Shown here one piece after another: positions 20,824 to 52,641 of a DNA stretch of 64,000 nt. A program made the translations under genes and the position numbers. The notes under the pieces were generated by a model. That model was not told where the DNA came from, ran no database searches, and saw nothing but the letters and a program-made list of their open reading frames with translations. The first letter of the stretch is position 1; each line of letters opens with the position of its first letter. Source of the stretch: Pleurocapsa sp. PCC 7319 (GTDB lineage: Bacteria; Cyanobacteriota; Cyanobacteriia; Cyanobacteriales; Xenococcaceae). Location: assembly GCF_000332195.1 (NCBI RefSeq), contig NZ_KB235922.1:2132211-2196210 (forward strand). The letters are read 5' to 3'.

Positions 20824-20875
20824 GACAAAAGTAATGAGTAATTGCAGGTAAAAGATGAAACGAAACTACCCCATG

Positions 20876-21035
20876 TATAGCCGTATAAAGTTACGTTAGG
20901 ACAAATTTATTTGATTGCTCGTAAGTAAAGGTGCGACCCCGCGTCGACGTAAGGCGCAAGGGAATGCGCACCTCCCGAAGGGTGAGTAACGAGTAACGAG
21001 TAATGAGTGTCCTAATAAAAGTTCGTATTGCTATA
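20876..21035. mobile_element. MITE family 1, copy 1 (TATAGC...GCTATA ends)
   Basis: A 160-bp element bounded by imperfect 28-bp inverted repeats starting TATAGCCGTA on the left and, as reverse complement, TATAGCAATACG on the right, both closing on TTAGGACA. The interior has short tandem GAGTAACGAGTAAC units and a CG-rich segment. Further copies are at 32873-33022 and 52405-52641. This copy lies in the promoter side of trpE. The terminal TA suggests a TA target duplication as for IS630/Tc1-type transposases (inference). Confidence 0.85.
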
Positions 21036-29478: not shown

Positions 29479-29901
29479 ATGGAAGAATTAATTACTTTAA
29501 GAAAATACATTGAAGAAAAAAACTACATCAAAGCTTTGGAACTTGTTGGTGAGTTGGAAGAGATGTCTAAGGAAGATAAACTTAACAAAATTTATAGTTA
29601 TGCGGTGATTCTCTTAGTACATTTGATCAAACAACAAGCTGAAAAACGGACAACTAGATCCTGGGGTGTTTCCATTAATAATTCTGTTAGAGAAATTAAG
29701 CGTACTAATAAGAGACGAAAATCTGGCGGTTACTATGCCAATGAAGATGAACTAATTGAAACTATTAATGAAGCTTTTGAAGCTGCAATTGAAAGAGCAG
29801 CTCTAGAAGCTTTTGAGGGTATATATGATGGAAATGAACTCAGGCAAATGATTGATGTGGAACAAGTGAAAAAAAGTGCTTTAACTTTGATCAATAACTA
29901 G
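29479..29901 (+). CDS. DUF29-like protein (140 aa)
   Basis: A short helical protein. The segment VILLVHLIKQQAEKRTTRSWGVSINNSVREI resembles the core LLxHLLKxxxQPExRxxSWxxTI pattern of DUF29 proteins, which are abundant in cyanobacteria; the rest (NEDELIETINEAFEAAIERAALEAF) matches the helical tail. Function is unknown for the family. It is slightly shorter than usual at the N-terminus. Its stop abuts the stop of the convergent futB copy A, marking the exact left edge of the duplicated futB-aroB unit. Confidence 0.6.
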   Translation: MEELITLRKYIEEKNYIKALELVGELEEMSKEDKLNKIYSYAVILLVHLIKQQAEKRTTRSWGVSINNSVREIKRTNKRRKSGGYYANEDELIETINEAFEAAIERAALEAFEGIYDGNELRQMIDVEQVKKSALTLINN

Positions 29902-31578
29902 TTAGCGAGAATGGGTGATACGCCAACTCAAGAAAATCACGGGAATGATCCCCACTAAGACGATTGCTAAAGCAGGTAATGCAGCCTCTGCTAGTCTTTC
30001 ATCAGAAGCATATTGATATACCCTAATTCCTAAAGTGTCAAAATTAAAGGGACGAATTACCAAAGTAGCAGGTAATTCTTTCATCACATCGACAAAGACT
30101 AACATCGCCGAAGTTAATAATCCCCCAGACAATAAAGGAGTATGAATTTTCCAGAGGGTACTAGTGGAACCATATCCTAAGCTGCGGGAAGCGTCGTCTA
30201 AACTCGGAGAAATTTTGTTTAAGCTTGATTCTACCGAGCCAAAAGCTACCGCGAGAAAACGTACCAAATAGGCAAAAATCAAGGAGGCTATCGTTCCTGA
30301 AAGTAATAAGCCAGTAGAAATATTGAAGGTAGAACGCATCCAACCGTCAATAATATTATCTAATCCTGCTACAGGAATTAGTACTCCTACAGCGATTACT
30401 GAACCAGGAATGGCATAACCCATCGCGGCAATCCTAACTGCTGTTTTCATAAACCAGTTTGGTTCCAGTCTCTGACCATAAGCCATCAATAAGGAAATGA
30501 GCATAGCGGCGATCGCTGTCACTATAGCCAGAGTAAAACTATGTTGGGCTAAACTCCAGAATTCGTCATTGAAAGCAGAATCAATATTTTTGAGAGTCAA
30601 ATGTAATAGGTAGATAGCAGGAATGATAAATCCGAAGATAACGGGCAATAAACAACAGAACCCTGCCAATGTACCACGCCAAAAGTTTAGTTGATAGGGA
30701 GTTAATCTTCTCAGAGAATTAGAGCTTTCATAATACTGGGCAGCACTACGCGATCGCCTTTCAAAGACAATTAACACCAGAATAAAAATCATCAGAAAAG
30801 CCGCTAATTGAGCTGCTGCTGCCCTTTCTCCCATCCCTAACCAAGTTCGATAAATTCCGGTGGTAAAGGTATTAACTCCAAAATACTCTACAGTACCCAA
30901 ATCATTCAGGGTTTCCATTAATGCGAGAGCTAAGCCTGCCATAATCGATGGTCTAGCCAAAGGAATAGCAATCGTCAAAAAACTACGCCAGGGATTACAT
31001 CCCAAAGAGCGGCTAGCTTCTAAAGTACATACTGACTGTTCGAGAAATGCTACCCGTGCTAATAAATAAACATAGGGATATAAAACCAATAGCAGCATCA
31101 CCGCTGCCCCCCATACTGAGCGAATGTTAGGAAACCAATAATCATTGAAACTAGTCCAGCCAAACAGACCACGTAACCAGGTTTGCACTGGTCCAAAGTA
31201 ATCTAGCATTTTGGTATAGTCATAAGCCAAGAGATATGCAGGAGCAGCTAAAGGTAGCAAGAGCAGCCACTCCAGCCATCTGCTACCCCAAAAACGACAC
31301 ATCGTTACCAACCAGGCTGTTCCTACTCCAATGAGACATACTCCTATACCTACCAAGAGCATCAACATTAGGGAGTTAAGGATGTAATCTTGTAAAACTG
31401 TTGCCGCTAAATGTTTCCAGATAGCAGTAGATTTAGTAAAAATACTACTAAAAACAAAAAATATAGGCATGGCAATCACTAAGGCGATCGCCATAACTAG
31501 AATAGTCCAACCATTAAAAGCCAAGCGTTTGAACATTCGGCTTGCAGGGGACGAAATCAAATTAGAGTTACCGTTCAC
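29902..31578 (-). CDS. futB: Iron(III) ABC transporter permease, copy A
   Basis: A 558-residue inner-membrane permease of the FbpB/FutB type: two fused MetI-like halves with about 12 helices. Each half carries an EAA-type ATPase-contact loop, EASRSLGCNPWRSFLTIAIP (about residue 188) and DDASRSLGYGSTSTLWKI (about 457). It would translocate ferric iron delivered by a FutA-type binding protein, energised by FutC; neither is encoded nearby. The start at 31578 gives a normal length. It is divergent from aroB (194 bp). About 14 residue differences from copy B by my count. Confidence 0.9.
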   Translation of the reverse strand: MNGNSNLISSPASRMFKRLAFNGWTILVMAIALVIAMPIFFVFSSIFTKSTAIWKHLAATVLQDYILNSLMLMLLVGIGVCLIGVGTAWLVTMCRFWGSRWLEWLLLLPLAAPAYLLAYDYTKMLDYFGPVQTWLRGLFGWTSFNDYWFPNIRSVWGAAVMLLLVLYPYVYLLARVAFLEQSVCTLEASRSLGCNPWRSFLTIAIPLARPSIMAGLALALMETLNDLGTVEYFGVNTFTTGIYRTWLGMGERAAAAQLAAFLMIFILVLIVFERRSRSAAQYYESSNSLRRLTPYQLNFWRGTLAGFCCLLPVIFGFIIPAIYLLHLTLKNIDSAFNDEFWSLAQHSFTLAIVTAIAAMLISLLMAYGQRLEPNWFMKTAVRIAAMGYAIPGSVIAVGVLIPVAGLDNIIDGWMRSTFNISTGLLLSGTIASLIFAYLVRFLAVAFGSVESSLNKISPSLDDASRSLGYGSTSTLWKIHTPLLSGGLLTSAMLVFVDVMKELPATLVIRPFNFDTLGIRVYQYASDERLAEAALPALAIVLVGIIPVIFLSWRITHSR

Positions 31579-31772
31579 AGATAAATAATAAATTTTGCCA
31601 AGTTTACTATGTAATTAAGCTTAAGCTAATTTAGTTCCTAGTTCTTAGTTTTTAGTTCTTAGTTTTTAACTTTGGGTTGTGATAGTAAATAGTAGCCAAA
31701 CAGTTAAATCTTTAAGTAACTTAAGCCGAAAAAAATTTACAATAAAATCTCTAAAAAATAGCTTTAGCCGAT
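31579..31772. promoter_or_regulatory. Shared divergent promoter region of futB and aroB (copy A)
   Basis: 194 bp between the two start codons, identical to the region at 40782-40975. It contains a short tandem repeat (CTTAGTTTTTAGTT-type, 31635-31668) and AT-rich tracts (e.g. TTACAATAAAATC before aroB, a plausible -10 region). Identity in non-coding DNA is what makes recent conversion between the copies likely. Confidence 0.5.
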
Positions 31773-32861
31773 ATGCCTAAGATCACTGTAAATCTTCCTC
31801 AAGACTCTTACGAAATTGCGATCGCTCCTAGCAGCCTAGCTCAGTTAGGCAACAAAATGCAAAAGTTAGCTATCGGTAACAAAGTATTAGTTATTTCTAA
31901 CCCTGAGATATTTAAGCACTATGGCGAAATTTGCGTAAAATCTCTAGAAGCATCTGGCTTTGAAACCTGTACTCACTTAATTTCCGCAGGAGAATCATTC
32001 AAACATCTTCAGTCTATCCAGCAAGTCTACGATACAGCTTTAGCTAACCATATTGAGCGTTCTTCTACCTTAGTAGCCTTAGGTGGTGGGGTAATCGGTG
32101 ATATGACAGGATTTGCTGCTGCTACTTGGTTACGGGGAGTGAATTTTGTGCAAGTGCCTACTTCTCTACTCGCCATCGTCGATGCTTCGGTAGGCGGCAA
32201 AACCGGAGTTAACCATCCCCAAGGTAAAAACTTGATTGGAGCATTTTATCAGCCTAAATTAGTGGCGATCGATCCGACCCTGTTAAAAACCTTGCCTTCC
32301 AGAGAATTTAGGGCAGGTATGGCAGAAGTGATTAAGTATGGTGTTATTTGGGATCAAGATTTATTTACTAAATTAGAAGCTAGCGATCGCCTGGATAGTT
32401 TAGATTATGTCAGCGAGGAGTTACTAGAAACTATTATTACTCGTTCCTGTCAGGCAAAAGCTGATGTCGTTAGCCAAGATGAAAAAGAAGCAGGATTACG
32501 AGCAATTCTTAATTACGGACATACTATCGGTCATGCCGTTGAGAGTTTAACTCACTATAAACAGTTTGTTCACGGTGAGGCTGTGGCGATCGGTATGGTG
32601 GCAGCAGGAAAAATTGCGGTAGAAATGGGTCTATGGACAAAAGAACAGGCTCAAAGGCAAGATGCTTTGATTGTTAAAACTGGTTTACCAACCGAAATTC
32701 CCTCTGAGTTAACAATAGAAGATATTTTAGAAACAATTAAAAGTGATAAAAAGGTTAAAGCGGGAAAAGTGCGATTTATTCTTCCTAATAGCATTGGCGA
32801 AGTCATGATCACCGATCAGGTTACGCCAGAAATTATCACCGCAGCTTTGAAAATAAATTAG
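31773..32861 (+). CDS. aroB: 3-dehydroquinate synthase, copy A
   Basis: Second step of the shikimate pathway: DAHP to 3-dehydroquinate, NAD and zinc dependent. The motifs are [20 protein letters not shown] (NAD), [19 protein letters not shown] (substrate phosphate), and the metal ligands in [19 protein letters not shown] and [11 protein letters not shown]. The length of 362 is typical. It faces away from futB. The 3' end is followed after 11 bp by a MITE copy. About 15 residue differences from copy B, clustered near residues 46-92 and in the last 65 residues. Confidence 0.95.
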
Positions 32862-32872
32862 GTTACTAGGAG

Positions 32873-33022
32873 TATAGCCGTACAAAGTTACGTTAGGACA
32901 AGTTTATTTGATTGCTCGTAAGTAATGAGTCCCGTCGAGCGGGATAAGCCTTCGGCATGGCTTCGCTACGAGATAATGAGTAACGAGTAATGAGTGTCCT
33001 AATAAAAGTTCGTATTGCTATA
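32873..33022. mobile_element. MITE family 1, copy 2
   Basis: A 150-bp element with the same TATAGCCGTAC...GTTCGTATTGCTATA ends as the copies at 20876 and 52405. The interior differs: it carries CCCGTCGAGCGGG and a GCTTCGGC-type palindromic insert. It sits between the stop of aroB copy A and the stop of the sulfotransferase gene, 2 bp from the latter. Absent after aroB copy B. Confidence 0.85.
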
Positions 33023-33024
33023 CC

Positions 33025-33924
33025 TCAAGCAATTCGAGAAATCTTCGTTTCTGCCTCAGGGGGAATATCCCGCTTGACCATCCCTGGATAAAAAGTCTGG
33101 TAGAACCAAGCAAATTGTTGCTGAATTTGCTGCTGAATCCTTGTTGGTATCCCATGAATCGATGGTGGCTCGATTTGCGATCGCGTTTGGTGGCGATACT
33201 TGAAGCGATAATAACTATCACTTTCGTGGGGCTTAACTGTCAAATTTTGTGGATCGAACTCCGCTGAGGGCAAACCCAACCAGTCATAAATGCCCTGCAT
33301 CACCTTGGTAGGTTCTTGCATGAGGTGTTCAAATACAACGTAGTAAAGCCGCTGCTGTAACTGAACATCTAGGTCTTGCACTGCTTCGATAGAATGCAAA
33401 GGTGCGCCAATTACTCCCTGGCTACCAAAGAGTTTATCTGCGCGATCATAACGGGATAGATTGGCTAGATGGTCGGGAAAATCCAGCAATAAGGTTTTCT
33501 GGTGTTGGGCTTCTACCGAACCATAAATCTGACCCAATTCCCTCACACAAACCAACATACGAAAGTTGGGGTCTAGCAGGTTGACAGTTTCAATGTGGTG
33601 AACCCAACCTCGGTTTTTGTTGACCACCCAAGCTTTTTCTGTTTCGGCAAACCAGCCATTAATAAAACCCCGAAAGGCGTTCATTAGTCGCTGATAGGTA
33701 AGGTCGAAGTCTACATCTAATTGGGCGCGGAGAAAGTCAGCATCGCTGAGATTGTAACGTAGACTCATCAATGTGGGACAGAGAGGCGAACTATGACCGT
33801 TACTGTATACCTCTTCATGATGATCTAATAGTTGGCAGAGAAGAGTCGATCCAGAACGGGGTAAGCCGGTAACGTAGATAATTTTTTTGTTGAGTTGAGA
33901 TACTGGATGGTTGGGTTGGGGCAT
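33025..33924 (-). CDS. Sulfotransferase family protein
   Basis: A 299-residue PAPS-dependent sulfotransferase-like protein. The N-terminal P-loop-like 5'-phosphosulfate motif is VTGLPRSGSTLLCQLLDHH, the 3'-phosphate region falls around FRMLVCVRELGQIYGS (about residue 128), and the C-terminal part resembles the bacterial tyrosylprotein/lipid sulfotransferase type (PTKVMQGIYDWLGLP). It would transfer sulfate to a hydroxyl group; acceptor unknown. No signal peptide. It lies between a MITE and the Gly-rich surface-protein locus. Confidence 0.82.
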   Translation of the reverse strand: MPQPNHPVSQLNKKIIYVTGLPRSGSTLLCQLLDHHEEVYSNGHSSPLCPTLMSLRYNLSDADFLRAQLDVDFDLTYQRLMNAFRGFINGWFAETEKAWVVNKNRGWVHHIETVNLLDPNFRMLVCVRELGQIYGSVEAQHQKTLLLDFPDHLANLSRYDRADKLFGSQGVIGAPLHSIEAVQDLDVQLQQRLYYVVFEHLMQEPTKVMQGIYDWLGLPSAEFDPQNLTVKPHESDSYYRFKYRHQTRSQIEPPSIHGIPTRIQQQIQQQFAWFYQTFYPGMVKRDIPPEAETKISRIA

Positions 33925-34320
33925 TTTTTTCTTTTAGCTATCAGCTATCAGCTATCAGCTATCAGCTTTTTTTGTTGGGTTGGTGGTTGAGATTTAAGGG
34001 AAATTGTCAATATTAACTGATTACTGTTATTTATTAGCACGATAATAAGGGGAAATATAACCGTGGTTTTACTGGATTTTTAGCTCTAAGCTCTAAGCTC
34101 TAAGCTCTAAGCTTCAATCAAATGGAGTTTTAGACCCCAACTGATTGTAGACAACGTATTGCGATGCAGCGCGTTCTTGTTGGTTCCCGTACCGCGAGCG
34201 ACTGCATCAAGAAGACGATGGGATATTAAACCCAATAGCTACAAGCTCTAAGCTATCAACGTAAGTGAACTTTAGAGCTTAAAGCTTAAGGCTTAAAGCT
34301 TACAGCTTTCTTGATAACTA
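33925..34320. repeat. Intergenic region with short tandem heptamer repeats
   Basis: Contains about four to five copies of AGCTATC at 33935-33967, four of AGCTCTA at 34082-34112, and imperfect AAGCTT/AAAGCTTA-rich inverted sequence at 34240-34305. No coding frame. These resemble the short tandemly repeated repetitive sequences known from cyanobacteria. Related heptamers recur on the other side of the Gly-rich gene (37240-37275, 37940-37965). Confidence 0.7.
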
Positions 34321-34326
34321 ATAACT

Positions 34327-34360
34327 AAAAAAAAATCCCCGCCCAAGAGGACGAGGAAAA
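34327..34360 (-). terminator. Rho-independent terminator of the Gly-rich surface-protein gene
   Basis: On the minus strand CCTCGTCC and GGGCGGGG form an 8-bp stem (two G-T pairs) around a 4-base loop, 34356-34337, followed by a run of T's (34335-34327). It lies 19 bp past the stop codon of the 899-residue gene. Confidence 0.8.
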
Positions 34361-34378
34361 AAATATAGCTAAAATTAT

Positions 34379-37078
34379 TTACACAAAGTCAAACGAAACA
34401 ATTACATCATCGAAATCGGCATCGCCAAGACCAACCTGGTCTTCAAAGCCGAAGGTGTTGTCACCCAAAAGCTTGGTATGGTCTAAACCATCGCTGTTGG
34501 CTCCAGCATTGGAGAAGAATACTTCGTTGGTATCGGGGTTAGTTCCATCTACGACTAAAAAGATACCAAGGTATTCACCACCTTCAATGGTGCCAGTGAA
34601 GTTTCTCTCTTGACCATTTTCACCCGATAAAGTGAGATCTAATTGTCTGGCTAGTGCTGCTTCTTTATATCCTGCATCTCCAGGGTTTAGAGTAGTACCA
34701 GAAATATCTGTAATGGCACCAGTAGCATCGTCAGTAGTATAAAAGCCCACTATATTGTTAAAATCTGCCTCACGGAACACGCTAAAAGTCATATCCCGTG
34801 GACCAAATTCCCCAGTCAGATCAATTGCTGCCGCATCATCTGCACCATCGGCTCTCATCACGTTAGTAGTTGGGGTAATATCAACCACTGAAGCTAATAA
34901 ATCGGTATCACCATCAAAATCGAACTCAATTTCTCCATTAGGACCACTGGAAATAGTGGCTACTCTAGTAACGCCGTTTTCTACGAGTTCGAGTTCGAGA
35001 GTAGAGTTGTCCGATAGTAAAGAATGATCAACAGTAAAAGATGGATTATAAGAAGAAGGCAAGTCTTCCCCTTGTAGCAGTGAGAAGCTACCAACTTGAG
35101 TACGGTTGCCGCTAGAGTCGATGCTAAAAATGTCAATTTCACCGAGGCTAGTCTCACTGTCTTGAGTGATTGAGAACCTGATAGAACTATCGGTACCCAG
35201 GTTGTTAACTTCAAATCTATTCGGATTGCTAGTAGAACCGCCACTAGAACCGCCACTAGAACCGCCACTAGAACCGCCACTAGAAACTGGCGCAAGACTG
35301 CCACCAGTAGTGGGAGTACCGCCAGAGCCACCGTCAGTAGTAGGAGTAGGAGTACCACCGCCAGAGCCACTGCCAGAGCCACCGCCAGAGCCACCGTCAG
35401 TAGTAGGAGTAGGAGTACCACCGCCAGAGCCACTGCCAGAGCCACCGTCAGTAGTAGGAGTAGGAGTACCACCGCCAGAGCCACTGCCAGAGCCACCGCC
35501 AGAGCCACCGTCAGTAGTAGGAGTAGGAGTACCACCGCCAGAGCCACTGCCAGAGCCACCGCCAGAGCCACTGCCAGAGCCACCGCCAGTGCCGCCACCA
35601 GTAGTAGGAGCAGTATCGTTGTCGGTGATAGTCAGGATTGTGGTGGCATTTATACCGATGATGTTCCCATTTACGTCTACGTCGGACACATCAAAAATAA
35701 TGGTTTCGTCACCCTCAACTTCTGTGTCATCGATAATGGGAATTTCAACTATTTTAGAGGTTTCATTGGCAGCAAAGGTTATAACAGAGGGAAAATTAAC
35801 ACCATCAAAATCAACGATGTCAGTAGCTGTGGTATTAGGATTAATCTCGACACGCACATCTGTGGCAACGGTACTTGCTGCACGGGTTAGGGTCACAACT
35901 TGGCTGATACCAACCCCTTCATCTACTGTATATGTAGGAGCAGAGAATTCAACGGTTGGGTTTGGAGTCGTGGTGCGGGTGATAGTATTCCCGAAGAGAT
36001 CTTCGGTGTCGAGATCTTCTCCAGAACTAATGTCGTCGGGTGATGGGTTAGTATCTGCATTATCTTCGGCAGAATTACTTGTAAATGTGACCGTATCAAG
36101 AGTTACCTCAGGAAGAGCAAAGCTTTGTCCATCAATATCATTAGCAGCATCATCCTTGAGTGAGAAAATCGCACCACCAAGACCATTAGATGTATCATCA
36201 TTCGTGGCATCATCTGCCACATTACTACTAAATGTACTATTTTGAACTGTTAACTTACCACTAAAAGCAAAGATAGCCCCCCCCATACCAGCGCCGCCGT
36301 TGCCGAAGCCGTCGGCGGTGCCGCCGCCGTAGCCGCTGTCGCCGTCGCCGCCGCCGCCGCCGTTGCCGCCGCCGCCGCCGAAGCCGCCGTCGCCGCCGTC
36401 GCCGCCGTTGCCGTAGCCGCCGCCGCCGCCGCCGCCGCCGCCGAAGCCGCCGTTGCCGCCGTTGCCGCCGTTGCCGTAGTTGCCGTTGTTGTAGCCGGCG
36501 TTGCCGCCGTTGCCGCCGTTGCCGCCGAAGCCGCCGTTGCCGCCGTTGCCGCCGTTGCCGCCGTTGCCGCCGCCGCCGCCGTTGCCGCCGTTGCCGCCGT
36601 AGCCGCCGTCGCCGCCGTCGACGCCGTCGCCGCCGTCGACGCCGTTATTACTTGGATCGGGAGTAACAAAGCCAGCATTCCCACCGACAGAGCCATTCGT
36701 GGGATTGCCACCTTGTGCAGTATTGCCTGAAAAAGTACTGTCGCTAACAGTTACATCCCCTCCATAAATAAATAGCGAGCCGCCCATACCCGCACCACCA
36801 CCTGCTCCATCTCCCCCTTTAGCTAAACCATTAGCAAAAGTTAGGTTGTCGAAGACTACAGTACCGCTTTTAACAAAGAAGTGCCGAAAATTCCCTCCAC
36901 CATCGATGGTATTATCGTTACCATTGATGGTTAGACCTGTATCTTCCTCAATTAAGGGCAATAGCTCAGTGATAGTAATATCACTGTTTATATTAATGGT
37001 ATCGGCTGCATTATTACCTTTAGAATCGGTAATCGCCTGCTTTAATTCGTCAAAACTATTTACATTAAAATCAGCCAT
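34379..37078 (-). CDS. Large Gly-rich surface protein with Calx-beta and DUF4114 domains
   Basis: 899 residues, no Sec signal. The N-terminus (about 1-140) resembles a parallel beta-helix adhesin start (INGNDNTIDGGG, GGSLFIYGGDVTVSDSTFSGN). Residues about 143-262 are almost pure Gly/Asn/Asp repeats (GGNGGNGG) encoded by near-uniform GGC codons. More beta-helix follows (GGAIFAFSGKLTVQNSTFSSN), then a Calx-beta domain (about 375-485; VEFSAPTYTVDEG...EGDETIIFDVSD), a GSGSGGGTPTPTTDGG repeat tract (about 490-620), and a C-terminal DUF4114 domain (about 755-899, ending DADFDDVIVSFDF). Likely exported by type I secretion, calcium-binding, adhesive. Repeat length is probably variable between strains. 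Confidence 0.85.
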   Translation of the reverse strand: MADFNVNSFDELKQAITDSKGNNAADTININSDITITELLPLIEEDTGLTINGNDNTIDGGGNFRHFFVKSGTVVFDNLTFANGLAKGGDGAGGGAGMGGSLFIYGGDVTVSDSTFSGNTAQGGNPTNGSVGGNAGFVTPDPSNNGVDGGDGVDGGDGGYGGNGGNGGGGGNGGNGGNGGNGGFGGNGGNGGNAGYNNGNYGNGGNGGNGGFGGGGGGGGGYGNGGDGGDGGFGGGGGNGGGGGDGDSGYGGGTADGFGNGGAGMGGAIFAFSGKLTVQNSTFSSNVADDATNDDTSNGLGGAIFSLKDDAANDIDGQSFALPEVTLDTVTFTSNSAEDNADTNPSPDDISSGEDLDTEDLFGNTITRTTTPNPTVEFSAPTYTVDEGVGISQVVTLTRAASTVATDVRVEINPNTTATDIVDFDGVNFPSVITFAANETSKIVEIPIIDDTEVEGDETIIFDVSDVDVNGNIIGINATTILTITDNDTAPTTGGGTGGGSGSGSGGGSGSGSGGGTPTPTTDGGSGGGSGSGSGGGTPTPTTDGGSGSGSGGGTPTPTTDGGSGGGSGSGSGGGTPTPTTDGGSGGTPTTGGSLAPVSSGGSSGGSSGGSSGGSTSNPNRFEVNNLGTDSSIRFSITQDSETSLGEIDIFSIDSSGNRTQVGSFSLLQGEDLPSSYNPSFTVDHSLLSDNSTLELELVENGVTRVATISSGPNGEIEFDFDGDTDLLASVVDITPTTNVMRADGADDAAAIDLTGEFGPRDMTFSVFREADFNNIVGFYTTDDATGAITDISGTTLNPGDAGYKEAALARQLDLTLSGENGQERNFTGTIEGGEYLGIFLVVDGTNPDTNEVFFSNAGANSDGLDHTKLLGDNTFGFEDQVGLGDADFDDVIVSFDFV
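35220..35600. repeat. Minisatellite encoding Gly-Ser/Thr-Pro linker
   Basis: Tandem units of about 60-75 bp, each containing GTAGTAGGAGTAGGAGTACC followed by CCAGAGCCACTG/CCACCG motifs, encode repeated GGGTPTPTTDGGSG linkers. At 35235-35285 a shorter 12-bp unit (GAACCGCCACTA) repeats about four times. Near-identity of units indicates recent expansion by slippage or unequal exchange. Confidence 0.9.
36290..36650. repeat. GCC-rich trinucleotide/12-mer microsatellite encoding Gly-Asn tract
   Basis: About 360 bp dominated by GCC and GCCGTT units (minus strand GGC and AACGGC), encoding (GGNGG)n. GC content is far above the AT-rich surroundings. All glycines use GGC, unlike the mixed glycine codons elsewhere in the same gene. 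Confidence 0.9.
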
Positions 37079-37780
37079 ATTCTTTTCACTCCTAAGTACT
37101 TTAAAATTAAATGTTTGGGAATTTTTAGTTATTAGTTACGTATCTCAAAGACTTATGCCAGAGAGGACGTAAAAACATAACATTTCAAATAAGATAAAAT
37201 CTGCTTTTGCATATTTGTTACATCTCATGGTTTTACCTTGAAAAGCTCTCAGCTTTCAGCTATTAGCTCTCAGCTCTAAAGTTTACTTAAGTAATTATTA
37301 ATAATTAGCCATAGCAAAAAACCCTAGGAATAAACTTTTCTGTAGAGTAATAAGCGAAAACAAATAGTTTAGTTGTCGATCTGATTGATCTTAGAGATTT
37401 TTTGCAGTTGAGCAAACTCATATAAGTTTTGATTTTCCGAGCAAAGATAGATGATTTTTCTCTTCGAGATAAACCAGAAACAAAGATTAGGTTTGCATGA
37501 TAGCCGTCAAAAAAATCTATGCTTTGTTTAAAAATAAAGCCTATAAAATAGAGACAAGTATTAACTTCAAACAAAGATATAACAAGAAAATTCAAGTCAG
37601 AAATAATCTGATTAGAAGCAACCATAAATATACTAACTGGGAGATAAACATGACATAATCTGTTACATTTATCTGATGAATTAAGAAAAATACTTAAGTT
37701 AACAGAATAATCATATTTTTCTTACAAAATACCCAATTATAATCACAACTTTATTAGTAAATCCAACCGTATATATAACT
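37079..37780. other. Intergenic region without supported gene
   Basis: Upstream region of the Gly-rich gene. It contains AGCTNTC-type short repeats at 37240-37275. A 106-codon minus-strand frame at 37305-37625 has no recognisable domain and irregular composition and is not called. The promoter of the surface-protein gene should lie in the first 200 bp. Confidence 0.45.
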
Positions 37781-37897
37781 ATCTTTTATCTTGAAGGTGG
37801 CAAAATTATAGAACGAGGCACTCATCAGCAATTAATAAGCCGAGGTAAAAATTACGCTACTCTCTACCGATTACAACAAACCGTTCAATATCGTTAG
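37781..37897 (+). pseudogene. C-terminal remnant of an ABC exporter ATPase
   Basis: The frame reads YLEGGKIIERGTHQQLISRG then KNYATLYRLQQ and a stop: the D-loop-distal end of ABC exporter nucleotide-binding domains (usually V-LEGGKIIExGTHxeLL). Nothing of the preceding Walker or signature motifs is present upstream in any frame, so this is the last 38 codons of a deleted gene. It indicates that an exporter gene once stood next to the surface-protein locus. Confidence 0.75.
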
Positions 37898-38002
37898 TAC
37901 GCTTTATGCTAATTAGCTTTGTTCACATGTTTTTGTTTTAAGCTCTAAGCTTATAGCTTAGAGCTAACCTCGCTCCTAAATTGCCTTGATCCAAACTGAG
38001 GT

Positions 38003-38118
38003 TAATTACCGTGAGTGGGTACATCGCAGCAATTCTAACAGCCGTTCTCATGAACCAGTTAGGTTCTAATCTCTGCCCATAAGCCATCAATAAAGAAATT
38101 ATCATGGCAGCGATCGCC
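38003..38118 (-). pseudogene. futB: Third, deleted copy of futB
   Basis: 38003-38020 matches the 3' end of futB (as at 39105 onward, AATTACCGTGAGTGGGTA), then jumps directly to a segment equivalent to futB positions near 30421-30516, running to the HIP1 octamer at 38109-38118. The internal segment is more diverged from copies A and B than they are from each other. This is a decayed remnant of a third futB. Confidence 0.8.
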
Positions 38119-38147
38119 TAAATGAAAGAATTAACTCTATTGTCAAG

Positions 38148-38443
38148 TTAGATTTTTTTTGTTTCACCATCCTCAAACCTTTCCCTCACTTTCTTCACAG
38201 TTGTACCCAAAATAAATGCTACTTCTGTCAAAATACTCTCATCTTGGCTAGCTTTATAGATGCGAGCAAGATTGCCCAAGATAACACCTAAATAATGCTG
38301 ATCATTAAACTTTAAAAAAATCCCTAAAGCTTGCATCAACTGAGTTTTTGCTTTTGCTAATTCTCCTGATTTTTCGGCAACTATTCCCAAATTGTGATAA
38401 GTTTTAGCTTGATTGTAGCGATCGCCGAATTCGATACAGTTAA
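38148..38443 (-). pseudogene. C-terminal fragment of a TPR-repeat protein
   Basis: An open frame on the minus strand encodes FGDRYNQAKTYHNLGIVAE then SGELAKAKTQLMQALGIF and LGVILGNLARIYKAS, i.e. one to two tetratricopeptide repeats plus the tail found in cyanobacterial NB-ARC/TPR-type proteins. The upstream part of the parent gene is missing: the frame continues into non-homologous sequence overlapping the start of the MNT gene on the other strand. Probably a remnant, possibly still translated. Confidence 0.6.
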
Positions 38444-38454
38444 CAAAGAATACG

Positions 38455-38787
38455 ATGAAAGTTAAAAATATAGAAATTTCTATAGAGAAGATCAAAAAAT
38501 TTTGCAAAGATTGGCAAGTTACTGAATTTGCTTTGTTTGGCTCTGTGTTGCGAGATGATTTCCGTCCTGATAGCGACATTGATGTAATGGTTCAATTTGA
38601 TGCTAACGCTCATCCTACCTTCTGGAATCTAGAGCAAATGGAAGAAGAGTTAAAGACTATTTTTAAAAGAGAAGTCGATCTAATTACTCGCCAAGGCATC
38701 GAAACCAGTCGTAACTATTTGCGTCGTCAAGCAATCTTATCTTCTATTCAGGTAATTTATGCAACGGGATCTTCAATTTCTGCTTGA
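38455..38787 (+). CDS. MNT-type nucleotidyltransferase antitoxin (MntA-like)
   Basis: A 110-residue minimal nucleotidyltransferase. The catalytic motif is FALFGSVLRDDFRPDSDIDVMVQF (G-S ... D-x-D) and a third acid lies in REVDLIT. In characterised HepT/MntA modules this enzyme AMPylates the HEPN toxin and neutralises it. Its 3' end overlaps the HepT gene by 29 bp, so the two are translated together. The pair lies directly before the 3' edge of futB copy B. Confidence 0.9.
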   Translation: MKVKNIEISIEKIKKFCKDWQVTEFALFGSVLRDDFRPDSDIDVMVQFDANAHPTFWNLEQMEEELKTIFKREVDLITRQGIETSRNYLRRQAILSSIQVIYATGSSISA

Positions 38788-39097
38788 TATGTTGCAATCC
38801 GCAGAACTTGTAATACAGTACACTGCTCAATGCTCAAAAGAGGAGTTGATTGATAATATTCAACTTCAAGATTCAGTGATTAGACGATTATTAGTGATTG
38901 CTGAAGCAGCAAGAAGAGTTTCCGAAATGACTCAAAGATCTTTATCCTATATTTCATGGCAAGAGATTAACGGAATGAGAAATCGATTAGTTCATGAATA
39001 CGATGATATTAATCTCAATATTGTTTGGGATGTCATTCAAAATGATATACCGATTTTAATACAGCAGCTAAAATTGATAGTTCCTCCTGAAAAGTAA
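38759..39097 (+). CDS. HEPN-domain toxin (HepT-like RNase)
   Basis: A 112-residue all-helical HEPN protein. The catalytic R-x4-H-x-Y motif is RNRLVHEY near residue 78, matching HepT RNases; the tyrosine is the residue modified by MntA in characterised systems. IRRLLVIAEAARRVSE is the usual preceding helix. It is expected to cleave RNA when free of the antitoxin. The MNT/HepT order and overlap are canonical. It converges on futB copy B (7 bp gap). Confidence 0.9.
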   Translation: MQRDLQFLLDMLQSAELVIQYTAQCSKEELIDNIQLQDSVIRRLLVIAEAARRVSEMTQRSLSYISWQEINGMRNRLVHEYDDINLNIVWDVIQNDIPILIQQLKLIVPPEK

Positions 39098-39104
39098 AAA
39101 CTAA

Positions 39105-40781
39105 TTACCGTGAGTGGGTAATACGCCAACTCAAGAGAATTACGGGGATTATTCCCACTAAGACAATTGCTAAAGCAGGTAAAGCAGCCTCTGCCAGTCT
39201 TTCATCAGAAGCATATTGATAAACCCTAATTCCCAAGGTGTCAAAATTAAAGGGACGAATTACTAGAGTAGCAGGTAATTCTTTCATCACATCGACAAAA
39301 ACTAGCATTGCCGAGGTCAATAGTCCACCAGATAATAAAGGGGTATGGATTTTCCAGAGGGTACTAGTAGAACCGTATCCTAAACTGCGGGAAGCATCAT
39401 CTAAACTAGGAGAAATTTTGTTTAAGCTTGATTCTACCGAGCCAAAGGCAACCGCCAGAAAACGTACTAAATAGGCAAAAATTAATGAGGCGATTGTTCC
39501 TGACAGCAATAAACCAGTGGATATATTAAATGTAGAACGCATCCAACCGTCAATTATATTATCTAATCCGGCTACAGGAATTAGTACTCCTACAGCGATT
39601 ACTGAACCAGGAATGGCATAACCCATCGCGGCAATCCTAACTGCCGTTTTCATAAACCAGTTTGGTTCCAGTCTTTGACCATAAGCCATCAATAAAGAAA
39701 TGAGCATAGCGGCGATCGCTGTCATGATAGCGAGAATAAAACTATGTTGAGCTAAATCCCAGAATTTGTCATTGAAAGCCGAGTCGATATTTTTTAACGT
39801 TAAATGTACTAGATAAATAGCAGGAATGATAAATCCAAAGATGACAGGCAGTAAACAGCAAAACCCAGCTAATGCACCGCGCCAAAAGTTTAGTTGATAT
39901 GGGGTTAATCTTCTGAGGGAGTTAGAACTTTCATAGTACTGGGCGGCACTTCGAGATCGCCTTTCTAAGACAATTAACAGTAAAATAAAAATCATCAGAA
40001 AAGCGGCTAATTGAGCTGCGGCGGCTCTCTCTCCCATTCCCAACCAGGTACGATAGATTCCAGTGGTAAAGGTATTAACTCCAAAGTATTCTACAGTACC
40101 TAAGTCATTGAGAGTTTCCATTAATGCTAGAGCTAAGCCCGCTGCAATCGAAGGTCTAGCTAAGGGAATAGCAATCGTAAAAAAACTACGCCAAGGATTA
40201 CATCCTAAAGAGCGACTAGCTTCTAGGGTACATACTGACTGTTCTAGAAATGCTACCCGCGCTAATAAATATACATAGGGATATAAAACTAAGAGCAACA
40301 TGACCGCTGCTCCCCACAGTGAGCGAATTTCAGGAAACCAATAGTCATTAACACTAGTCCAGCCAAACAGACCACGTAACCAAGTCTGAACTGGTCCAAA
40401 GTAATCTAGCATTTTGGTATAGTCATAAGCTAATAGATATGCAGGAGCTGCTAATGGCAGTAATAGCAACCACTCCAGCCATCTGCTGCCCCAAAAACGA
40501 CACATCGTTACCAACCAGGCTGTTCCTACTCCAATGAGACATACTCCTATACCTACCAAGAGCATCAACATTAGGGAGTTAAGGATGTAATCTTGTAAAA
40601 CTGTTGCCGCTAAATGTTTCCAGATAGCAGTAGATTTAGTAAAAATACTACTAAAAACAAAAAATATAGGCATGGCAATCACTAAGGCGATCGCCATAAC
40701 TAGAATAGTCCAACCATTAAAAGCCAAGCGTTTGAACATTCGGCTTGCAGGGGACGAAATCAAATTAGAGTTACCGTTCAC
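39105..40781 (-). CDS. futB: Iron(III) ABC transporter permease, copy B
   Basis: 558 residues with the same start and length as copy A. Differences by my count are about 14, for instance VNDYWFPEIRSLW against FNDYWFPNIRSVW and NDKFWDLAQHSFILAIMTAI against NDEFWSLAQHSFTLAIVTAI; the N-terminal 105 residues or so (coded within the identical tract) are the same. Both EAA loops are intact. Both copies therefore look functional. As with copy A, no binding protein or ATPase gene is adjacent. Confidence 0.9.
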   Translation of the reverse strand: MNGNSNLISSPASRMFKRLAFNGWTILVMAIALVIAMPIFFVFSSIFTKSTAIWKHLAATVLQDYILNSLMLMLLVGIGVCLIGVGTAWLVTMCRFWGSRWLEWLLLLPLAAPAYLLAYDYTKMLDYFGPVQTWLRGLFGWTSVNDYWFPEIRSLWGAAVMLLLVLYPYVYLLARVAFLEQSVCTLEASRSLGCNPWRSFFTIAIPLARPSIAAGLALALMETLNDLGTVEYFGVNTFTTGIYRTWLGMGERAAAAQLAAFLMIFILLLIVLERRSRSAAQYYESSNSLRRLTPYQLNFWRGALAGFCCLLPVIFGFIIPAIYLVHLTLKNIDSAFNDKFWDLAQHSFILAIMTAIAAMLISLLMAYGQRLEPNWFMKTAVRIAAMGYAIPGSVIAVGVLIPVAGLDNIIDGWMRSTFNISTGLLLSGTIASLIFAYLVRFLAVAFGSVESSLNKISPSLDDASRSLGYGSTSTLWKIHTPLLSGGLLTSAMLVFVDVMKELPATLVIRPFNFDTLGIRVYQYASDERLAEAALPALAIVLVGIIPVILLSWRITHSR

Positions 40782-40975
40782 AGATAAATAATAAATTTTG
40801 CCAAGTTTACTATGTAATTAAGCTTAAGCTAATTTAGTTCCTAGTTCTTAGTTTTTAGTTCTTAGTTTTTAACTTTGGGTTGTGATAGTAAATAGTAGCC
40901 AAACAGTTAAATCTTTAAGTAACTTAAGCCGAAAAAAATTTACAATAAAATCTCTAAAAAATAGCTTTAGCCGAT
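40782..40975. promoter_or_regulatory. Shared divergent promoter region of futB and aroB (copy B)
   Basis: 194 bp, identical to 31579-31772. Both copies should therefore be expressed in the same way, unless the flanking sequence matters. Confidence 0.5.
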
Positions 40976-42064
40976 ATGCCTAAGATCACTGTAAATCTTC
41001 CTCAAGACTCTTACGAAATTGCGATCGCTCCTAGCAGCCTAGCTCAGTTAGGCAACAAAATGCAAAAGTTAGCTATCGGTAACAAAGTACTGGTCATTTC
41101 GAACCCAGAGATATTTGAACACTATGGCGAGACCTGCGTTAAATCATTAGAATCTTCGGGATTTGAAACATCTACTCATTTAATACCAGCAGGGGAAGAA
41201 TTCAAAAATCTCCAGTCTATTCAGCAAGTATACGATACAGCTTTAGCCAATCATTTAGAGCGTTCTTCCACCTTAGTCGCTTTAGGGGGTGGGGTAATCG
41301 GCGATATGACAGGATTTGCTGCTGCTACTTGGTTACGGGGAGTGAATTTTGTGCAGGTGCCCACTTCTCTACTCGCCATCGTCGATGCTTCGGTAGGCGG
41401 CAAAACCGGAGTTAACCATCCCCAAGGTAAAAACTTGATTGGAGCATTTTATCAGCCTAAATTAGTGGCGATCGATCCGACCCTGTTAAAAACCTTGCCT
41501 TCCAGAGAATTTAGGGCAGGTATGGCAGAAGTGATTAAGTATGGTGTTATTTGGGATCAAGATTTATTTACTAAATTAGAAGCTAGCGATCGCCTGGATA
41601 GTTTAGATTATGTCAGCGAGGAGTTGCTAGAAACTATTATTACTCGTTCCTGTCAGGCAAAAGCTGATGTCGTTAGCCAAGATGAAAAAGAAGCAGGATT
41701 ACGAGCAATTCTTAATTACGGACATACTATTGGTCATGCCGTTGAGAGTTTAACTCACTATAAACAGTTTGTTCACGGTGAGGCTGTGGCGATCGGTATG
41801 GTGGCAGCAGGAAAAATTGCGGTGGAGATGGGTTTATGGACCAAAGAACAGACTCAACGGCAAGATAACTTAATTGTTAAAACGGGTTTGCCAACCGAAA
41901 TTCCTTCTGAGTTGACAGTAGAGGATATTTTAGAAACTATTAAAAGTGATAAGAAGGTTAAAGCAGGGAAAGTACGTTTTATTCTTCCTACTAGTATTGG
42001 CGAAGTAATAATTACCGATCGGGTTACGCCGGAAATTATCACCTCGGCTTTGAAAATTAATTAG
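40976..42064 (+). CDS. aroB: 3-dehydroquinate synthase, copy B
   Basis: 362 residues with all catalytic motifs of copy [45 protein letters not shown]. It differs mainly between residues 46 and 92 ([20 protein letters not shown] against [20 protein letters not shown]) and after residue 295. No frameshift or lost ligand, so both aroB genes should encode active enzymes. Which copy is ancestral at its place cannot be told from this window. Confidence 0.95.
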
Positions 42065-42102
42065 TTTGCTGGAATTACCTCCCTTTTTGCTGAGTTCTTT
42101 TA

Positions 42103-52404: not shown

Positions 52405-52641
52405 TATAGCCGTACAAAGTTACGTTAGGACAAGTTTATTTGATTGCTCGTAAGTAAAGGTGCGACCCCGCGTTATGCGGAGCGGTATCCTTTAGGGCGA
52501 CGTAAGGCGTTTACCCAGGAGCGTTATCTGGGCAAGGGAATGCGCGACCGAAGGAAGTCCTTTAGGGCACCTCCCGAAGGGTGAGTAACGAGTAACGAGT
52601 AACGAGTAATGAGTGTCCTAATAAAAGTTCGTATTGCTATA
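52405..52641. mobile_element. MITE family 1, copy 3 (expanded interior)
   Basis: A 237-bp element with the TATAGCCGTAC / GTATTGCTATA ends of the copies at 20876 and 32873. The interior is like copy 1 but contains at least three extra blocks: GCGGAGCGGTATCCTTTAGGG-type, ACCCAGGAGCG...CTGGGC, and GACCGAAGGAAGTCCTTTAGGG-type, which look like smaller palindromic repeats inserted into the MITE. Confidence 0.85.

Follow-up and report, generated by a model that had tools for sequence, protein, structure and literature searches.

Gene conversion between duplicated genes is already well described, and the futB-aroB locus of Pleurocapsa sp. PCC 7319 adds what appears to be a well-resolved example in different genes. 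The cyanobacterial psbA and psbD duplicates are kept alike, silent sites included, which the authors credit to recurrent gene conversion (PMC6053082). As there, duplicated cyanobacterial protein genes appear to have been homogenised at the futB-aroB locus; in contrast to psbA and psbD, which recur in this state across many species, the futB-aroB copies are homogenised in parts only. A near-identical aroB pair was found in one of 13 genomes of the genus; several of the other 12 are fragmented drafts that might hide a second copy (two of them 81-82% complete). With the duplication in this one genome, the recurrence across species that would mark concerted evolution cannot be seen. The words aroB and futB are absent from the main text of PMC6053082. 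The rRNA operons of E. coli share intragenomic copying between duplicates with this locus, but their copies are identical or nearly so whereas those of futB-aroB are mostly still diverged (PMC8022953). No paper on a futB-aroB duplication was found in literature searches, as judged from titles and listings, and a search joining 3-dehydroquinate synthase, gene conversion and cyanobacteria gave nothing related, judged by title.

The window, a 64,000-nucleotide stretch of contig NZ_KB235922.1 without any N, belongs to a draft assembly of this marine cyanobacterium, of 7,386,997 bases in 10 contigs. The first-pass annotation had described two 2.96-kb copies lying 9203 bp apart in the same orientation, and the coordinates and alignment agree: two direct copies of 2,960 bp each (29902-32861 and 39105-42064) are spaced by 9,203 bp and align without gaps at 92.3% identity, with 228 mismatches. 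Each unit carries a futB-like gene (558 aa) and aroB (362 aa) in divergent order, both intact. In a self-comparison of the window the pair appeared as one long, gene-size direct repeat (29893-32871 versus 39096-42073, 92.2%), so that homology ends near the stop codons, continuing 9-10 bp past them, rather than exactly there as had been proposed. The features of the locus are listed below in window coordinates; G005 is the nearest relative found.

29479-29901, plus strand: DUF29 gene (frame, family search) adjoining futB of copy 1, stop to stop
29902-31578, minus strand: futB-like two-domain ABC permease gene of copy 1; intact 558-aa frame, protein 97% identical to copy 2
31286-31886, no strand: candidate conversion tract 1 in copy 1; 601 bp identical, covering the futB 5' part, the whole 194-bp intergenic region and the aroB start
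31631-31668, no strand: heptamer array TTAGTTC/TTAGTTT, 5.4 units, between futB and aroB within tract 1; twin at 40834-40871
31773-32861, plus strand: aroB (3-dehydroquinate synthase) of copy 1; intact 362-aa frame, protein 96% identical to copy 2
32160-32620, no strand: candidate conversion tract 2 in copy 1, inside aroB; 461 bp with 2 differences, permutation-significant over its first 263 bp
32872-33022, no strand: dispersed repeat adjoining copy 1 on its right; further matches within the window at 20875-21035 and 52405-52641, ends roughly inverted (by eye)
33025-33924, minus strand: sulfotransferase-like gene between the copies (family search)
34379-37078, minus strand: large repeat-rich gene (Calx-beta, DUF4114) between the copies (frame, family search)
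38003-38117, minus strand: decayed third futB fragment, made up of 19 bp from the 3' end (38003-38021) and, after it, a 96-bp internal piece (38022-38117)
38110-38143, plus strand: blaR piece joined to the futB relic through GCGATCGC (38110-38117), with a match to blaR of G005 (94%, E 5e-6)
38455-39097, plus strand: mnt-hepn gene pair, type VII toxin-antitoxin-like, adjoining copy 2; above Pfam cut-offs, below NCBIfam cut-offs
39105-40781, minus strand: futB-like permease gene of copy 2; intact frame, family match; mnt-hepn on its left flank, a remnant of which occurs in G005
40489-41089, no strand: counterpart of tract 1 in copy 2
40976-42064, plus strand: aroB of copy 2; intact frame, TIGR01357 match
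41363-41823, no strand: counterpart of tract 2 in copy 2

The predicted aroB product is firmly identified by family (TIGR01357; copy 2, 412 bits against a cut-off of 305). The futB-like protein of copy 2 has two stretches of Pfam BPD_transp_1 and a best NCBIfam match of 97 bits against a cut-off of 593; family matching supports the name futB at family level only (BPD_transp_1). Besides both copies and the relic, a search of this genome with the futB protein returned a single distant match (26%).

The differences between the copies are unevenly spread. Two identical runs, of 601 bp (31286-31886/40489-41089) and of 263 bp inside aroB (32160-32422/41363-41625), were found as the first-pass annotation had given them, the latter forming part of the 461-bp tract 2, in which the copies differ singly at 32423 and 32528, both silently. 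Its statement that the differences are mostly silent likewise stood, with 130 silent and 14 replacement codon differences in futB and 50 and 15 in aroB. Divergence is not greatest toward the outer gene ends, as had been thought; its maximum, 17-20%, falls just inside aroB (31882-32081). To assess mosaicism, we aligned the two copies with the linked units from four relatives (G005, G007, G008 and G009). A comparison of the two copies with G005 gave 578 variable sites, on which the copies are concordant for runs of 108 sites (tract 1) and 34 sites (the first 263 bp of tract 2), compared with a maximum of 28 in 10,000 shuffles (P = 0/10,000 for each run), and the six-sequence version gave runs of 167 and 101 against a shuffled maximum of 58. 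The mosaic is not chance, and the non-uniform divergence that had been claimed is upheld, the 108-site run rejecting uniformity. Shorter concordant runs, including the rest of tract 2, were not significant alone in the shuffling test (P 0.06 or more). None of 116 fourfold sites in the tracts differs between the copies, against 92 of 258 outside them (66/196, 15/38 and 11/24). The locus thus shows two features expected of interlocus gene conversion: significant identity tracts on a diverged background, and identity at silent and non-coding sites for which constraint is not the cause, as set out below. The proposal of repeated conversion between old copies fits in so far as it joins old copies to later conversion; 'repeated' finds weak support in two significant runs, and both tracts might stem from one patchy event.

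Outside the tracts, dS between the copies is 0.59 for futB and 0.78 and 0.66 for aroB, with dN/dS of 0.030, and 0.060 and 0.069, respectively, these low ratios indicating that the pair diverged under selection. Replacement changes polarised with G005 fall on both copies (6 and 5 in futB, 7 and 4 in aroB, with 3 and 4 unresolved). Outside the tracts the copies stand at a fourfold distance of 0.45-0.71 from each other and of 0.75-1.13 from G005; eight further genes in the window (six to the left of copy 1, two to the right of copy 2) gave 0.43-0.87 against G005. When sites outside the tracts were polarised by G007, G008 and G009, 70 derived sites were common to both copies and 21 and 23 united one copy with G005; the aroB parts taken by themselves give a weaker sister signal (17 versus 8 and 6). 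A tree of the diverged futB part, with 17 rows (both copies, G005 and 14 other relatives with a fetched futB, two rows being partial), joined the copies at 100/100 and placed G005 next, also at 100/100. By these sites and this tree, the copies are sisters that would have split after G005. The paralogues are nearer each other than to the orthologue of the relative, as in concerted evolution, and a split after G005 yields the same tree without conversion. We also considered a duplication before the G005 split; it finds no support in the present sequence (70 derived sites versus 21 and 23), though conversion could hide an older date.

The neighbourhood of the two copies was compared across the 12 other genomes of the genus. 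Neighbouring futB and aroB lie on one contig in five of them (G005, G007, G008, G009 and G010, the last cut by a contig end) and on different contigs in five (G002, G003, G004, G006 and G012), for some of which a broken assembly is possible; G011 has an aroB match alone, and G001, 81% complete, has neither. In G005 an mnt-hepn remnant lies about 50 bp past the futB stop (38667-38799, 95%), and since the whole pair adjoins copy 2 here, copy 2 occupies the shared place. The aroB side of G005 carries a chelatase-like gene (by eye) whose nearest match in this genome is about 0.26 Mb off, so the right flank of copy 2 is not common with G005. Two relatives of that chelatase-like gene occur in this genome (L141 and L142, 82% and 79%), both distant from the window. 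A different G005 contig carries blaR and, 84 bp beyond it, a TPR gene. The same interval in Pleurocapsa sp. PCC 7319 measures 8.7 kb and holds the DUF29 gene, copy 1, the dispersed repeat, the sulfotransferase and large repeat-rich genes, the end of an ABC-transporter gene, and the fused futB relic and blaR piece; the segment with copy 1 is missing in G005. Both G005 contigs, the one with futB and the one with blaR-TPR, end in TPR-like repeats, and they may therefore be neighbours.

Several elements between the copies can be described further. The dispersed repeat (32872-33022) is about 150 bp long, with roughly inverted ends and many matching places here and in relatives; it looks like what we take to be a small, putative non-autonomous mobile element. 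Fifty matches to 32862-34360 were counted in this genome, most of those listed being to this repeat, whose halves were often counted apart. For the sulfotransferase-like gene, no DNA match occurred among the matches listed in the 12 other genus genomes. Position 37781-37899 holds the 3' end of an apparent ABC-transporter ATPase gene (by eye), with 89% identity to a locus 25 kb beyond the left edge of the window. Arrays of 7-bp repeats lie at 31631-31668, 33936-33967, 34082-34113, 34272-34308 and 37244-37277, and the stretches flanking the large repeat-rich gene, 34262-34309 and 37242-37289, match in opposite orientation. A decayed aroB end with one TAG lies on G005 contig C140 (L170 8286-8477), near aroC and a shikimate-kinase-like gene, and suggests an older aroB site there; at 65-67% identity to aroB of both genomes it was judged too old to be informative for the duplication.

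The third futB piece, which the first-pass annotation had not mentioned, appears to record an earlier state of the gene. Its first 19 bp (38003-38021) equal the 3' end of futB copy 2 (39102-39120), and its 96-bp piece (38022-38117) is 85% identical to copy 2, 84% to copy 1 and 90% to G005. At seven sites relic and G005 have a base in common, both copies sharing another, and for five of these sites the relic's base also occurs in two or more of the three outgroups; set against this, one site is common to the relic and copy 2 alone and five are peculiar to the relic. We infer a separation of the relic from the futB line that predates the changes both copies gained at the seven sites, with no conversion of it since. 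Relic and blaR piece share the octamer GCGATCGC, with the TPR gene after them, and their fusion (38022-38143) apparently marks the scar of an older rearrangement. The octamer is the HIP1 palindrome of cyanobacteria; relic and blaR piece meet in it, and its part in the fusion is suggested by this one junction. A futB piece fused to blaR just before TPR is what a tandem duplication running from blaR to futB would be expected to leave. Such a duplication at GCGATCGC accounts for the junction seen (futB piece, octamer, blaR piece, then TPR); by itself it gives no whole copy 1 and falls short of a full history of the rearrangement.

Selection on the promoter and on aroB, holding stretches of uniformly old copies identical, would suit the position of tract 1 across the shared promoter and both gene starts, but it is scarcely credible as the cause of the identity: against G005 the same tracts differ at 43 of 116 fourfold sites (15/39, 5/14 and 23/63), and in the promoter region 33 of 159 aligned sites differ, with a further 43 columns gapped, so that constraint does not explain identity between the copies. 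An assembly fault, in which the duplication is real and one sequence was used twice for gap closing, is given some room by the draft state of the genome (10 contigs) and by the length of the 601-bp tract, which would exceed that of common short reads. We regard this as unlikely, as the window has no N, the two single silent differences in tract 2 speak for the copies having been kept separate in assembly there, and divergence returns sharply to 17-20% at the aroB edge of tract 1. The tracts thus appear to come from conversion rather than from assembly error, and the conversion events appear to be recent.

Import of copy 1 from a sibling strain, at a distance similar to that between the copies, followed by partial homogenisation with the resident copy, is harder to set aside: copy 1 lies in the blaR-TPR segment that G005 lacks and beside a sulfotransferase gene for which no DNA match is among those listed from the genus, and the shared flank belongs to copy 2. 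Import and internal duplication predict the same mosaic. No nearer relative of either copy was found among 59 other genomes searched, and the futB relic, together with the blaR piece, suggests that duplication took place locally at the site. Import is accordingly a tentative option to us, and copy 1 seems to have arisen inside the Pleurocapsa sp. PCC 7319 lineage. A focus of conversion on the bidirectional promoter and gene starts, keeping one regulation while the protein ends drift and with GCGATCGC sites as exchange starts, we consider very doubtful; three of the four GCGATCGC sites common to both copies fall in the tracts, which make up about 36% of the unit, and this association is not significant (chance about 0.14, a hand estimate on four shared sites). 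What we think likely is an old duplication with both copies under selection, followed by recent gene conversion.

Under such a duplication with later conversion, an old second copy of the divergent futB-aroB pair would have been retained beside the original, with purifying selection acting on both. Cyanobacteria often hold several chromosome copies, and recent homologous recombination between the futB-aroB copies, on the same chromosome or on sister copies, would have overwritten two stretches of one copy by the other: the 601 bp with the promoter and 5' ends, and about 461 bp in aroB. In a cell that repairs its DNA by homologous recombination, nearby homologous copies in the same orientation would be expected to convert where identity is high, and stretches that have drifted far tend to escape, which would leave patches of identity amid diverged sequence. 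Recombination between the copies might plausibly also delete or amplify the 9.2-kb unit.

A figure of 1,640 genes (24.3%) is given for Pleurocapsa sp. PCC 7319 where one paper discusses duplicated genes (PMC7381351). We sampled 23 stretches of this genome, each 20 kb long (20 spread, 3 beside the window), and five of them (L154, L157, L162, L167 and L169) contained a direct repeat at least 500 bp in length. Five pairs, from L154, L157, L162 and L169, were profiled with 1,000 simple shuffles that do not allow for constraint. Identical runs exceeded the shuffles in two of them (the second L157 pair, 152 bp against a maximum of 122; L169, 78 and 77 bp against 52) and stayed within the shuffled range in three (the first L157 pair, 76 against 145; L162, 308 against 413; L154, 48 against 51). 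The run-bearing repeats lie at L169 12004-15117 and L157 2-7654, the latter being one long frame that we take to resemble a non-ribosomal peptide synthetase. With other local repeats showing patchy identity, the futB-aroB case is nothing singular in this genome.

The understanding of futB or aroB themselves is unchanged by the case. Its value is that of a clean natural record of apparent gene conversion between copies of housekeeping genes, with an apparently unconverted fossil beside them, and of a warning that divergence estimates for duplicates, and trees built from parts of them, depend on the stretch chosen.
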